The notes under the pieces were generated by a model that did no database searches, was not told the DNA's origin, and saw only the letters and a program-made list of their open reading frames with translations. Positions 35,216 through 57,584 of a stretch of DNA of 64,000 bases are shown in pieces. The translations under genes were made by a program, and so were the position numbers. Origin of the DNA: Edaphobacter flagellatus (GTDB lineage Bacteria; Acidobacteriota; Terriglobia; Terriglobales; Acidobacteriaceae); contig NZ_CP073697.1 in NCBI RefSeq assembly GCF_025264665.1, positions 806,001-870,000 of the forward strand, given 5' to 3'. How positions within the stretch are numbered: the stretch's first letter is position 1; every line of letters begins with the position of its first letter.

Positions 35216-35560
35216 ATGTCTCAGACCCCTGATGCAATGCAAAAGTGTATAGCCGACTGTACCCAGTGCCACCAAATTTGCACTTCAACTCTCCTTTACT
35301 GTTTGCAACAAGGTGGCAAGCACGCTGAAGCCGGCCACATTCGAGCCCTCCTCGACTGCGCCGAAAGTTGTGAGCGCTCGGTCCACTTCATGCTGCGCAA
35401 GTCTTCTTTCCATTCGAAGACATGCGCCCTCTGCGCCGAAATCTGCACAACCTGTGCGGAGAACTGTGAAGCGGTGGGCGACGATCAGCAAATGGCGGAG
35501 TGCGCCCGATCCTGCAGAATCTGCGCGGAGTCGTGCCTCCAGATGAGTCGAGCAGCCTGA
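35216..35560 (+). CDS. csp: Four-helix-bundle copper storage protein (Csp-like)
   Basis: A 114-residue protein with 16 cysteines, spaced as C-x3-C, C-x2-C and C-x6-C along four helices (for example KCIADCTQCHQIC, DCAESC, TCALCAEICTTCAENC and CARSCRICAESC). This is the DUF326 / Csp fold, in which Cys lining the bundle core holds many Cu(I) ions. There is no signal peptide, so it resembles cytosolic Csp3. The ATG at 35216 has AGGAG 8 bases upstream; a longer frame from 35135 looks non-coding. It is divergent from the main copper locus and would buffer cytoplasmic copper. Confidence 0.93.
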   Translation: MSQTPDAMQKCIADCTQCHQICTSTLLYCLQQGGKHAEAGHIRALLDCAESCERSVHFMLRKSSFHSKTCALCAEICTTCAENCEAVGDDQQMAECARSCRICAESCLQMSRAA

Positions 35561-35577
35561 TTATCGCTTGTCTTCGC

Positions 35578-35928
35578 GGGCGCAGAGGAGGCTTTTGAAG
35601 ATCCCTGCGCCCATCAGGTGGCCAGCTTAGCTGGGAGGGACGTACTCGCCATACGGCGTGGGCAAACAGCCGGACAACGCAACCTGGACGCGACGCGGCC
35701 AAGGAGCAAAAGATCCTGCCCTTGCTGAACCCGCGGCTTTTCAACGATGATGGAGGGTGGGACGGGTACGCACCGTCTTGGGGTGTCGAAACCCCTTAGT
35801 GCGAATCGCGCTTACGGGCGCGTGGAACTCTCTATGCCTTTGGCGTCGGGGAGCCTGTGACGTATGTCCAGGCCCCTAAAGCTAAAGGTCACAGGAGCCG
35901 CGCACTAACGGCTTTCGAACTCCCCGAC
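35578..35928. ncRNA. Candidate structured RNA/DNA element, hairpin series plus three-way junction
   Basis: A 350-base gap with no credible protein gene holds consecutive perfect inverted repeats: 35578-35585/35605-35612 (8 bp), 35622-35626/35630-35634, 35647-35650/35655-35658, 35761-35765/35773-35777, 35780-35784/35791-35795 (GGGGT/ACCCC) and 35807-35811/35818-35822. It ends in a closed three-way junction. The outer stem is 35845-35853/35920-35928 (9 bp). It encloses hairpins 35854-35861/35888-35895 (CCTGTGAC/GTCACAGG) and 35896-35900/35909-35913, which follow each other with no unpaired base. Strand is undetermined. It could be a leader of the HD-GYP operon, a separate RNA, or a replication or transfer structure. 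It matches no RNA class I know. Confidence 0.45.
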
Positions 35929-35945
35929 CTTGGGTTCATAGAGCA

Positions 35946-36638
35946 ATGTTTGCGGGGGCGCACCGCAAGCGTCGTTGCTCTTGGACCGTTGTCGAGGAGC
36001 CGAGCTTGATCCCTCTTGAGGCTAAACACGAGGCGCGCCGTAACACGTACTGGATGAACGCGGCACGTGCGCATGACCCGACTTTGCATCTGCACTGCGT
36101 GCACGTATCCGAACTGTGCGCATGCTTCTCCGCCTTCCTGAATCTGCCGCTAGACCAGCAAACCGCCTTAAAGCGTTCCGGGTTACTGCATGACATTGGA
36201 AAGCTCAAAGTCCCAGCCGCCATCCTGCAAAAGCCTTCGCCTCTCACGCCGGAAGAGACAACAATTGTTCAGGCTCATACATACCTCGGATACGAGATGC
36301 TGCTCGAAAACGGCGAAACGGACGAATTGCTACTGACGACAACCCGCGACCACCATGAGCGGCTTGATGGCAGCGGTTATCCCCGGCAGCTCACGGCTCC
36401 CGAAATTTCCGCAGCCGTCCGGATTGTGACTCTATGTGATGTTTTCGCGGCCATGACGGAGCCGCGTCCGTATGTTGCCGCTATGAAATGGGACGAAGCG
36501 TTGGCAACTATGGCGAAGATGCGCAACCGGCTCGACCACGATCTCTTAGCCGGTTTTGCCACAATGATGACGGCATTACACGCGCCGAAAAAGCGGTTCG
36601 GTCCGCTGGGAAACCGTTTAAGGAAAAAGAAAACATGA
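35946..36638 (+). CDS. Standalone HD-GYP domain protein
   Basis: Up to 230 residues. The HD-GYP signatures are LLHDIGKLKVP (about 82), HHERLDGSGYP (about 138) and VTLCDVFAAMTE (about 163). These match metal-dependent cyclic-di-GMP phosphodiesterases. There is no receiver or sensor domain and no membrane helix, and the C-terminus is basic (RLRKKKT). The start is uncertain: the ATG at 35946 gives a poorly conserved N-terminus, and a TTG at 36006 has AGGAG upstream and would begin nearer the domain. It overlaps the KH gene (ATGA). On a mobile element it might set c-di-GMP levels in a transfer decision; this is inference. Confidence 0.82.
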   Translation: MFAGAHRKRRCSWTVVEEPSLIPLEAKHEARRNTYWMNAARAHDPTLHLHCVHVSELCACFSAFLNLPLDQQTALKRSGLLHDIGKLKVPAAILQKPSPLTPEETTIVQAHTYLGYEMLLENGETDELLLTTTRDHHERLDGSGYPRQLTAPEISAAVRIVTLCDVFAAMTEPRPYVAAMKWDEALATMAKMRNRLDHDLLAGFATMMTALHAPKKRFGPLGNRLRKKKT

Positions 36639-36919
36639 CACTTTCCCAGCCTGTATGTAAGGAAGAACCGTCGATGCAGAGGCTCATGCATGAGATTGTC
36701 CGCTATCTGGTGGACGATGAAGCCGCTATCCGAGTAGATTGTCTGGACGGCAACGACGGCGTTACGACGCTCAATGTCCATGTCGCTCCGTCCGACACCG
36801 GCAAGCTCATTGGCAAGCGAGGCCGCACAGCGCGCTCGCTGCGCATGATCCTCTCGGCCGCCAGCATGAAATTGCACCACCGCTACGCGCTCAATATTCA
36901 GGAAACGATTGAGTCGTAG
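36635..36919 (+). CDS. KH-domain RNA-binding protein (KhpA-like)
   Basis: A 94-residue protein with one type II KH domain. The GxxG loop is in LIGKRGRTARSLRMI, preceded by the strand LNVHVAPSD and followed by a helix-strand end, as in KhpA/YlqC. The ATG overlaps the HD-GYP stop; an internal Met at 36674 corresponds to the usual KhpA start and also has an upstream AAGGA. KhpA is normally a chromosomal housekeeping RNA-binding partner of KhpB. Here the gene sits between an HD-GYP gene and the relaxase region, inside the element. It may bind the structured RNA candidate upstream, but nothing proves that. Confidence 0.86.
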   Translation: MTLSQPVCKEEPSMQRLMHEIVRYLVDDEAAIRVDCLDGNDGVTTLNVHVAPSDTGKLIGKRGRTARSLRMILSAASMKLHHRYALNIQETIES

Positions 36920-53997: not shown

Positions 53998-54984
53998 TCA
54001 ACCATTCTTCAGTGCGGCGTCTTCTTCCTCAAATAAGCCGGGGTCATCTTTGATCGATTGTGGAGGTTTGCGGCGAACCTCTGCATCTGCGTCAGGATAG
54101 CGGCGTGCAAGGTCGCGCAGCAGGAGCGAAATCGCTCCGTGCGCGTCGGTTTGTCTGTAGATGATTGCGGAATCAATGGTCCAATTAACCCCCTTGATTG
54201 GCCGGGTCGTTAGCGACTCGTGCAACACCTCATGCTCACGAATAAGAGCAATGCACATCTGTTGTTCGACCATCCATTGAATCTGTTCCAGATTGAAGGT
54301 CGGGCTGAAAGTGCGGGGCTTGATGCCTTGCTCAGAGAGCATCTCCAGTAGCCGTGCGTGAGCTGTTGGGTGATGGTGGGCATCGCTAAAGATGCCGAGT
54401 TTCCCATCAAGGTCTGCTGTATCCAACTCTTCTTTGCTCGCGAGTGGATCGTCCCTACGCAGACAGACGACCATGCGTTCGTGGAAAAGCGCCTGGGAGC
54501 GCAGCTTGTCGATACTGAATGGGAGAGTAATGAGAGCAGCGTCCAGTTCACTCGCTTCGAGGCGCTTGAGAAGGGCGTCGGTGTCGTCGCCTTCGAGCTT
54601 CACAACGCCCTTGGGAAACATCTCTCGATATGCCTGGGAAACTGTCTGTAGAACAGCATGCTCAACGAACTGCGAGAAGCCCAGACGAAAGGGCTTCGTT
54701 TCGGCATCTTGTACCGCCTGCAGCGAGTTGATCGTTTCCTCCCGAAGCTCAAGAAGCTGCTTAGCTCTGATGTAAAGGGATTGCCCTGCGGACGTGAGTT
54801 GAACGCCGTTACGGACCCGGAGGAAGAGCTTCACGTGAAAGAGATCTTCGATGTCGCTGATCTGCTTACTGAGGTTGGATTGGACTACGTTCAGTCGCTC
54901 GGCGGCCCGCGTCATGTTCAGCTCTTCGGCGACGGCCACAATGTATCTAAGATGGCGAAATTCCAGGTAATCGTAGATGCTCAT
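53998..54984 (-). CDS. LysR-family regulator between trb and excision genes
   Basis: A 328-residue LysR-type regulator. The winged HTH (about 8-67) reads LRYIVAVAEELNMTRAAERL and QSNLSKQISDIEDLFHVKLF. The two-lobed effector domain spans about 90-300. The Met at 54984 is used; a GTG six bases upstream is in frame, and the same GTG-CCG-ATG start arrangement occurs at trbC. It is flanked by the two inverted copies of the 25-bp block, upstream of trbC on one side and of the excisionase-like gene on the other. It is the best candidate to control both. The effector is unknown. Confidence 0.9.
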   Translation of the reverse strand: MSIYDYLEFRHLRYIVAVAEELNMTRAAERLNVVQSNLSKQISDIEDLFHVKLFLRVRNGVQLTSAGQSLYIRAKQLLELREETINSLQAVQDAETKPFRLGFSQFVEHAVLQTVSQAYREMFPKGVVKLEGDDTDALLKRLEASELDAALITLPFSIDKLRSQALFHERMVVCLRRDDPLASKEELDTADLDGKLGIFSDAHHHPTAHARLLEMLSEQGIKPRTFSPTFNLEQIQWMVEQQMCIALIREHEVLHESLTTRPIKGVNWTIDSAIIYRQTDAHGAISLLLRDLARRYPDADAEVRRKPPQSIKDDPGLFEEEDAALKNG

Positions 54985-55156
54985 CGGCACACCCCGAAAC
55001 TCTGCGGAGGAAGTGTGTTGCGTGAGTTTTCTCTGGGTATTTAACCCCAGATCAAACAGGTATTACTTAATGACTCAAAATAGGCAACAAAAGTTGCTTA
55101 GGAGTGAGCAACCATTCCCGTTTGTGGAATTCTGCCATCTGTCCGAGTGATAGCTC

Positions 55157-56318: not shown

Positions 56319-57584
56319 TTACGCCACTAGCCCGGCCAGTTCGCCGTTGTTGACCTTGTGCGCCGCATCCTTCGACCGGATGCCTTTGAGATAGACCATG
56401 GTGGACTTGATATCGCGGTGTCCCATCCACGCCTGCACGGTTCGGATGTCTACGCCATCGCGAAGATGGTTGGTCGCAAAGGTGTGCCGGAACTTGTGCA
56501 GGAAGAAGTTCATGCAGTATGGCCCCTCGGCGCACTTGTTGCCATGCTCCGTCACGCAATGGCCGCAGTTGAGGCCGGCACGTTCGGCGAGACGTTTGAC
56601 CACCATATCCATTTCGCTGTCGGGGTTGCCCTTGGTGTTGCCAAACACAAGATCGTGAGGCCGAGCGCTCTTCCGTTCCTTGCGCTTTTGGAGACGTTGC
56701 ATGAGCGCGTGGGGAAGAGGTACCACACGTTCCTCCCAGTTCTTCGGCGTGAAGTCCCACTTCGGCTTCGCGGTCACGCGTGCAAGATCGTGCCGGAAGT
56801 CGAGGTCGACGTATTCGACGTAACGGATCTCCTGGTCGCGGAAGCCGGAGCCAAGAATGAACTTGAGCAGGTCTGCTTCATCTATCGTGGCGATCTCGAA
56901 CATGGGTGTCATCTCTTCCGGCTCGTAGATCGGCCGGATGGTCTCGACATACTTTGGCCAGTCACCCTTTTCCATCAGGCCGCTTCGGCCATGCTTCTTG
57001 AAGAGCTGCAACACGGTCACGACCTTGTCGTAGACGGTGCGAGCGCCTAGACCTTTTTCGTAGCAGTAGGTCATGAAGTCGAGCACATCATCACGCGTTG
57101 CATCCTCAACAAACTTCCGTTTGTAGGAAGCGCGGAGAAGCGTGTCGAGGGTATACCGGTAGGTCAGCCAGGTGCGGGCCTTGCGTTGCATCTTCACGTA
57201 TCGCAGGTAAGTGTCGATCGCATCGCCGATGAGTGTCTTTGCTTCCGCAGCCTCTTCGGGCTTCGGTTCCGGTGCAGCGATCAGCCCATCGCGGATGGCC
57301 TGAAGCTCGACCGCCTTGCGCCTGGCTTCGGCAACGGCATCCTCTCGTTCGACCGCCGCGCGGCATCGCTTACCGCGTTCGCGCCACTCGATGTAATACG
57401 CGCCTTCGGGATGCGTCTCTACGGTGCCGTTGACGCGCACCTTGTCCTTGAGACGACCATTCGGTTCCGGCACAACGGGAGCGAAACGCCAGCTTCCATC
57501 GACTTTGATTTTCTTGATGAGGTTCACCCGGTCCGCGTAGTCGGGTGCATTGAGTAGAGCGCCGCGGGTCTTCAGAGTAGGCAT
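56319..57584 (-). CDS. int: Tyrosine recombinase/integrase of the element
   Basis: A 421-residue phage-type integrase. It has an N-terminal arm-binding region (about 1-110), a core-binding SAM-like domain (about 115-215, QRKARTWLTYRYTLDTLLRA), and a catalytic domain with Arg in LGSGFRDQEIRYVEYVDLDF. The H-x-x-R box is in HKFRHTFATNHL, His in GHRDIK, and the nucleophile Tyr in STMVYLKGI. An inserted CGHC...C...C segment (LNCGHCVTEHGNKCAEGPYC) before the HxxR box may bind zinc. AGGAGG precedes the ATG. It lies 100 bases from a truncated tRNA gene, its likely attachment site. Confidence 0.93.
   Translation of the reverse strand: MPTLKTRGALLNAPDYADRVNLIKKIKVDGSWRFAPVVPEPNGRLKDKVRVNGTVETHPEGAYYIEWRERGKRCRAAVEREDAVAEARRKAVELQAIRDGLIAAPEPKPEEAAEAKTLIGDAIDTYLRYVKMQRKARTWLTYRYTLDTLLRASYKRKFVEDATRDDVLDFMTYCYEKGLGARTVYDKVVTVLQLFKKHGRSGLMEKGDWPKYVETIRPIYEPEEMTPMFEIATIDEADLLKFILGSGFRDQEIRYVEYVDLDFRHDLARVTAKPKWDFTPKNWEERVVPLPHALMQRLQKRKERKSARPHDLVFGNTKGNPDSEMDMVVKRLAERAGLNCGHCVTEHGNKCAEGPYCMNFFLHKFRHTFATNHLRDGVDIRTVQAWMGHRDIKSTMVYLKGIRSKDAAHKVNNGELAGLVA

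Follow-up and report, generated by a model that had tools for sequence, protein, structure and literature searches.

The window, i.e., the whole 64,000-nucleotide stretch of Edaphobacter flagellatus DNA analysed here, carries a long minus-strand conjugation module and, beside its relaxase, coupling-protein and Trb-type genes, a short + strand unit in which a structured leader precedes an HD-domain gene and a frame with a KH domain (Table 1). The KH-domain frame is likely the second gene of this unit. This arrangement agrees with an earlier sequence-only reading, which placed a block of hairpins (35578-35928) directly upstream of HD and KH genes on a conjugative element. The HD-domain gene lies on one side of the block, and the other side is occupied by a small cysteine-rich ORF (35216-35560), for which no Pfam match was found. 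The block had also been called gene-free; indeed, its + strand contains no ORF of 80 codons or more, and a candidate ORF of 118 codons on the minus strand (35388-35744) reaches into its 5' part.

Table 1. Positions of the conserved element, its helices and the neighbouring genes in the window.
Feature	Position	Strand	Evidence or remark
Putative promoter	35722-35751	+	TTGCTG, 18-base spacer, GATGAT
Conserved structured RNA element	35755-35976	+	Full-length match to model R1, 214.8 bits
Hairpin P1	35759-35779	+	7-base loop GTACGCA (35766-35772); two-sided changes at 6/6 pairs; 93.9% of cells paired (83 rows)
Hairpin P2	35780-35795 (35780-35783 with 35792-35795)	+	100% of cells paired in the 22-row and 83-row alignments
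Pseudoknot PK1	P2 loop 35787-35790 with 35914-35917 (strand after P6)	+	98.4% of cells paired
Pseudoknot PK2	35796-35803 (strand after P2) with P6 loop 35901-35908	+	Test of own versus swapped partners
Variable hairpin P3	35807-35822	+	Two-sided changes at 7/7 pairs; 69.5% of cells paired (22 rows)
P0	35830-35836 with 35937-35943	+	4 pairs counted; 86.4% (22 rows) and 62.1% (83 rows) paired
P4, closing stem of the junction	35845-35853 with 35920-35928	+	99.3% paired; two-sided changes at 6/9 pairs (83 rows)
P5	35854-35895 (35854-35861 with 35888-35895)	+	97.9% paired; two-sided changes at 6/8 pairs (83 rows)
P6	35896-35900 with 35909-35913	+	98.5% paired; two-sided changes at 4/4 pairs counted (83 rows)
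Terminal hairpin Pend	35949-35969	+	Loop GGGCGCA (35956-35962); 91.6% paired (83 rows)
Shine-Dalgarno-like GAGGAG	35994-35999	+	Precedes the HD-domain gene
HD-domain gene	36006 (probable start, TTG) to 36638	+	PF13487, E 2.9e-31 for frame 35946-36638
Frame with KhpA/KhpB-type KH domain	36488-36919	+	PF13083, E 2.7e-17, residues 66-137
Conjugation module	37391-57584	-	TrwC relaxase, coupling protein, T2SSE ATPase, VirB8, TrbL, TrbI, CagX, TrbE-like, VirB3
LysR-type regulator	53998-54990	-	Within the conjugation-module stretch
Integrase	56319-57584	-	At the end of the conjugation-module stretch

Boundaries of the Conserved Element

The block does not hold together as one unit, and the proposal that all 350 bases form a single structure was rejected, as conservation is confined to the 3' part. 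The 5' part (35578-35744) lies outside the element: its folding is at chance level (z -1.2; 31 of 200 shuffles as good), none of 72,556 plasmid records matches it, and a single 34-base match was found among 99 other genomes. By contrast, the 3' part is conserved and structured, and the conserved unit extends approx. 40 bases past the end of the block, up to the hairpin Pend; as RNA, positions 35759-35975 fold with a z of -4.8 (0 of 200 shuffles as good). The element is an RNA of approx. 215 bases (222 bases as matched in the window copy, which is one of the 22 training copies of the covariance model R1).

The inverted repeats had been described as far denser than elsewhere in the window; whether this holds varies with the settings for stem length and loop limit. 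With perfect stems of at least 6 bp and loops of up to 60 bases, the block has 2 compared with a mean of 4.8 per 351 bases, whereas with stems of at least 8 bp and loops of up to 100 bases it has 4 compared with a mean of 0.54, a value of 4 being reached by approx. 1% of windows. The three stems of the proposed three-way junction (P4, P5 and P6) are present exactly where they had been placed.

Compensatory Changes and Fold of the RNA

The suggestion that the block contains a new structured RNA came with its own check, i.e., compensatory changes in relatives; this check was run and passed, and the suggestion is now strongly supported. When 22 copies were aligned by sequence alone, 87.4% of cells were paired and two-sided changes were present at 33 of 62 pairs, and neither value was reached in any of 500 shuffles, which ignore kinship among the sequences; with the partner slid by 1-3 columns, at most 49.8% of cells were paired. 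Among 83 distinct rows aligned with the model, the corresponding values were 89.3% and 46 of 56 pairs, again matched by none of 500 such shuffles. The structure is conserved by compensatory changes, as a cis-regulatory leader is expected to be, and the three-way junction itself covaries, with two-sided changes in each of its three helices.

R1 (225 positions, 51 pairs, built from 22 copies) was fitted to the nested stems, and both pseudoknots lie outside the model. For PK1, one pair takes four types in the 83-row alignment (G-C 37, A-U 25, C-G 12 and U-A 3). Read from alignment columns, PK2 has only 50-79% of cells paired (83 rows), and its loops differ in length. Because of this weak column pairing and variable loop length, PK2 was tested without an alignment: a helix score of at least 5 was obtained with the own P6 loop in all 90 sequences, compared with 219 of 1800 swapped loops (12%), and 63 distinct heptamers were involved. 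In a looser version with a score of 6, the own partner sufficed in 92 of 94 sequences versus 318 of 940 swaps; these tests took in 90 of 141 sequences and 94 of 148 sequences, respectively. P6 and PK2 have a loop in common, and the two may coexist or be alternatives.

Among the loops, that of P5 is the most conserved. Two segments, ATGTCCAGG (35864-35872) and CTAAAGG (35882-35888), show no variation across the 22 copies of the BLAST set. At the other extreme, P0 is the weakest nested helix and is missing from the minimum-energy fold. The 7-base loops of P1 and Pend are alike, and in the 124 of 138 copies that were parsed, their combinations are CGC/GCG (113), CGT/ACG (8), CGT/GCG (2) and CGC/GTG (1), with CGC/ACG absent. 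This distribution suggests that the P1 loop (35769-35771) may kiss the Pend loop (35958-35960), although the eight CGT/ACG copies may represent one event.

Polarity of Selection

Among the cells of P2, P4, P5, P6 and PK1 that are not Watson-Crick pairs, 252 are G-U and only 19 are A-C; over all eight helices counted, the numbers are 563 and 214. P0 follows the trend (119 versus 72) and P1 slightly reverses it (86 versus 95), both helices being poorly aligned in this count; in alignment A1, the P1 columns are shifted by one in several rows. The excess of G-U over A-C indicates selection on the + strand and not on its complement. The + strand is the sense strand of the next gene, and selection on this strand fits an RNA; the polarity as such separates the + strand from its complement only.

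This finding bears on the other proposal of the sequence-only reading, namely a single-stranded DNA structure used in transfer, for which the wobble polarity provides no support. Frpo are a class of single-stranded DNA promoters. Similarly to the element, they are structured and lie ahead of genes on conjugative DNA; however, they would act on the complementary strand, which the polarity disfavours. A promoter formed by the template strand was rejected on the same count, as the fold of the complement is not selected. More generally, a single-stranded DNA structure active in transfer, e.g., a Frpo-like promoter on the entering strand, would agree with the distance of 1.4 kb between the element and the relaxase gene in the window and with the many copies that precede conjugation regulators. 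Nonetheless, since the polarity counts against the template strand as the selected fold and the promoter-like sequence lies outside the fold, this explanation appears very improbable.

Distribution of the Element

R1 yielded at least 163 matches (some places were reached via two loci, and the window and other training copies are bound to match), representing 148 distinct sequences that, by record title, belong mostly to Alphaproteobacteria and, in addition, to Acidobacteriota. The model matched 88 of 91 sources and, in a second set, to which the window and the surroundings of most training copies belong, 71 of 74; the same three sources failed in both. One match lies on a Ti plasmid (pTiC58; NC_003065.3, 149,933-150,155). 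In the class to which the window belongs, matches were found in 16 of 399 genomes, all of one family, a sporadic spread as expected of mobile DNA. The element was matched in 342 of 72,556 plasmid records and in 1 of 50,697 phage records. Identity to the window element is 72-82% among the 17 other copies listed from its own genus and 70-74% among the best 20 plasmid records listed. The 222-base element of the window is identical to a copy in another genus of the family (L076), which also has the same layout of downstream ORFs.

A pattern scan of named genomes gave at least 120 stretches, mostly from Alphaproteobacteria by title (Rhizobium, Agrobacterium, Methylobacterium, Paracoccus, Sphingobium and others), together with nine from Acidobacteriota and a few others, one of them titled Gammaproteobacteria; 11 stretches from a viral collection also fit. 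All of these were chosen by a pattern requiring ATGTCCAGG...CTAAAGGYYNNNGG, and the invariance of both motifs among them is therefore by construction, the 22-row BLAST set being free of this bias. Some replicons carry the element twice. The genome of the window has a second R1 copy (G000:C1:768052-768278), in one locus (L023:3991-5236) two good copies, separated by approx. 1 kb, precede an HTH and an AraC-type regulator, and plasmids W03 and W05 likewise have two good copies each.

Putative Promoter, Start Codons and Search for Terminators

In the 29 aligned Acidobacteriota copies, TTGC and GAT.ATG are kept upstream of the element, and a -10-like hexamer adjoins its start in 40 of 133 copies compared with 3.2% of control windows. 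Sites resembling a TraR box (at least 12 of 18 bases of the consensus) are present within 120 bases upstream in 14 of 142 copies compared with 1.5% of shuffles, and 8 of these 14 sites are located at -68 to -70. Upstream of the pTiC58 copy there is a tra-box-like site with 14 of 18 bases (4 mismatches) at -68 and TATAA just before P1; no tra box with three or fewer mismatches was found in the pTiC58 stretch. Judged from these motifs, transcription of the window copy would start near 35758, close to P1.

The element lies immediately 5' of same-strand ORFs. In 85 of 122 copies, the start of an ORF on the same strand (70 codons or more) lies no further than 60 bases downstream; for the opposite side of the element the number is 31 of 122, and for random places 192 of 610. 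The other 37 of the 122 copies have no qualifying start within this distance. Of the 141 ORFs chosen as downstream genes by a rule that favoured near starts, 32 begin more than 60 bases away, and some of these are doubtful. For the TraM and HTH groups, approx. 10-40 bases lie between the last hairpin and the start codon, and a GAGGAG-like tail after Pend is common to many Acidobacteriota copies.

A run of at least four T soon after Pend was found in 15 of 127 copies, mostly from Acidobacteriota. As the other 112 copies have no such run, Pend was rejected as a general intrinsic terminator, and neither the terminator of its own that a free-standing small RNA should possess nor a conserved expression platform of the terminator type was recognised. 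These numbers are relevant to the possibility that the element is a gene for a trans-acting small RNA that merely adjoins the downstream gene and pairs with other messages. A compact fold with a stable 3' hairpin would suit such an RNA, as would the U-runs where they occur. However, the lack of a U-run in most copies, the proximity of start codons and the presence of the same RNA ahead of many unrelated same-strand genes speak for a leader, and we consider the small RNA explanation unlikely, including its variant in which the copies on Ti plasmids possibly correspond to QfsR (see below).

Genes Located Downstream of the Element

The downstream proteins were analysed for 141 of the 148 distinct sequences (two had no qualifying ORF and five lay at contig ends). 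Among them are 43 with Prok-TraM, 13 with RovC_DNA-bd (PF10074, which we take to be the former DUF2285), 12 with HTH_3 and 5 with HD_5 domains, followed by AraC-type proteins (3), outer-membrane barrels (3), GGDEF (2) and KH (1); a further 17 form a cluster with an HExxH motif. Thus, the same element is used with unrelated genes.

TraM restrains TraR (PMC3907764), and its protein level falls in an hfq mutant (PMC4201532), which fits post-transcriptional control. RovC is tied to the DUF2285 domain, and QseM, a lone DUF2285 domain, restrains TraR and FseA (PMC10359603). In our data, both of the TraM-gene neighbours tested are TraR-like, and an FseA-like neighbour accompanies the DUF2285 gene in two of six cases tested. 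Judged by the shared domain, the 13 DUF2285 proteins are probably QseM-like.

The HExxH cluster (L025:4355-5392, L027:4651-5733 and 15 others) is a family of approx. 350 residues with a HEAAHVEHE-type motif. In the genus of the window, the 11 strongest matches to its gene (10 near full length, one partial) all lie directly behind the element, as compared by hand from the coordinates, and three weak fragments do not. The members tested gave no match in Pfam, PADLOC (two members) or PDB (one member); in NCBIfam (six members and L041), nothing exceeded the cut-off, and one match in all searches fell below it. In L026, L038, L050, L055 and L060, a 48-codon ORF (MLIPHNISRKWF... and relatives), possibly a leader peptide, separates the leader from the HExxH gene. 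The second copy in the window's own genome (L025, 764000-773000) lies between a gene for a YhcG-type nuclease, which PADLOC lists as a candidate defence protein, and an HExxH gene, beyond which there are trypsin-like and HEPN_Swt1 genes.

Other neighbourhoods are also of note. ArdC-like antirestriction genes, assigned by a Pfam match in L030 and L034 and by similarity in L035, are located approx. 0.7-0.8 kb past the element, with short or doubtful ORFs between. The two GGDEF and five HD proteins among the 141 (L067, L184 and the window gene 36006-36638 among the loci) hint at nucleotide second messengers, and they represent a small share of copies. In loci such as L066, L118, L179, L187 and L190, the proteins after the element look exported; the tally of the 141 proteins includes barrel (3), BamE (2), VasI (1) and SH3 (1) domains, not assigned to individual members.

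Comparison with Known RNAs

The hairpins had been described as not matching familiar tRNA, tmRNA, RNase P, SRP or riboswitch motifs, and database searches bear this out: Rfam 15 gave no family at the gathering cut-off on either strand of the whole window, and ARAGORN found no tRNA or tmRNA in it. Searches with the element and two relatives yielded sub-threshold Rfam matches alone, and a search of 13 loci listed none, at an E-value limit too strict to show a 21-bit match. With E values of up to 5 allowed, RF02221 (sRNA-Xcc1) was the sole family reported for the element; it likewise has a 9-bp stem enclosing two hairpins and aligns at 35845-35936 (21 bits, E 0.38); relative L003 scored 20 bits (E 0.44), and for relative L022 the family was not listed at E up to 10. 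However, the 87 positions of RF02221 correspond to the junction alone, without P1, P2, PK1, PK2 and Pend, and the gathering score of 53 is not approached. Homology to sRNA-Xcc1 was therefore rejected, its scores being near chance.

Riboswitches and other cis-regulatory leaders resemble the element in their location before start codons, in a covarying pseudoknotted fold, here of approx. 215 bases, and in a nearly invariant loop core. The element differs in that it matches no family and has no recognised expression platform.

In the literature, the main challenge to the novelty of the Ti copy is QfsR. It is presented as a small RNA found on the Ti plasmid of Agrobacterium fabrum, with links to quorum sensing and conjugation (PMC7843513, PMC7912708), and said to act on the trb message (PMC7912708), a precedent that favours the small RNA reading. 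Like the pTiC58 copy, it is a Ti-plasmid RNA tied to these processes; unlike a leader, it is described as trans-acting, and its identity with the traM leader is only possible. In the main text of an Agrobacterium RNA-seq study (PMC3738593), the term traM is absent; the Ti2 RNA of that study lies before Atu6155, and traM is Atu6131 (PMC4201532). In the searched text of PMC6341043 and PMC7856919, leader and small-RNA terms were not present, and among the titles and abstract openings surveyed, which included few subscription journals, no such leader is described.

Conclusions and Perspectives

The element has a conserved, covarying + strand structure, is located just 5' of same-strand ORFs and is used with unrelated genes. 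It is reasonable to assume, and we regard it as probable, that it represents a new class of 5' leader RNAs that controls transfer regulators and other genes of mobile elements. In the mechanism that we propose, transcription would begin at or near P1 from a promoter just upstream, and the RNA would fold compactly into stems P0-P6, two pseudoknots and perhaps a contact between the P1 and Pend loops. This fold would set the yield of the downstream protein; in the likeliest scheme, binding of a small molecule or a protein to the conserved P5 core would expose or mask the start site. Among the identified targets, the largest groups are conjugation antiactivators or similar proteins (TraM in 43 and DUF2285 in 13 of 141), and the output would therefore probably be the timing of transfer or its threshold.

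That one leader precedes unrelated proteins speaks against autoregulation by the product and for a common factor, which we infer to be a metabolite, some protein of the host or the ribosome. Control of translation and the existence of a signal are likewise proposals. Given the very mixed downstream genes, a single signal for all copies is an assumption. AHL was rejected as the signal, as the TraM cluster has no member from loci titled Acidobacteriota, yet Acidobacteriota carry copies. A more specific and tentative proposal, which we would not place above the other possibilities taken together, is an orphan riboswitch, i.e., a multiply pseudoknotted leader for a small molecule that Alphaproteobacteria and Acidobacteriota share; on many unrelated conjugative elements, it would thereby set the level of quorum-sensing antiactivators (TraM, QseM-like) and of other mobile genes. 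Its two switch states could be the stem P6 and the helix PK2, both of which covary and make use of one loop.

Alternatively, the element might stabilise the message or boost translation constitutively and without a signal, being moved as a cassette of promoter, leader and ribosome site. Such a cassette would account for the use with unrelated genes and for the GAGGAG-like tail in many Acidobacteriota copies; however, near-invariant unpaired residues in the P5 loop and several tertiary contacts seem, in our judgement, excessive for stabilisation, and this explanation appears rather improbable.

If the element is indeed a regulatory leader, one level at which conjugation is controlled has so far escaped notice, also on the Ti plasmid, which is among the best-studied quorum-sensing systems, and the antiactivator that sets the quorum threshold has an elaborate RNA heading its message. 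This RNA stands ahead of two unrelated kinds of (probable) antiactivators, TraM and DUF2285/QseM-like proteins, as well as several other genes, in two distant phyla. Thus, its signal would tell what mobile elements in these bacteria heed before moving.
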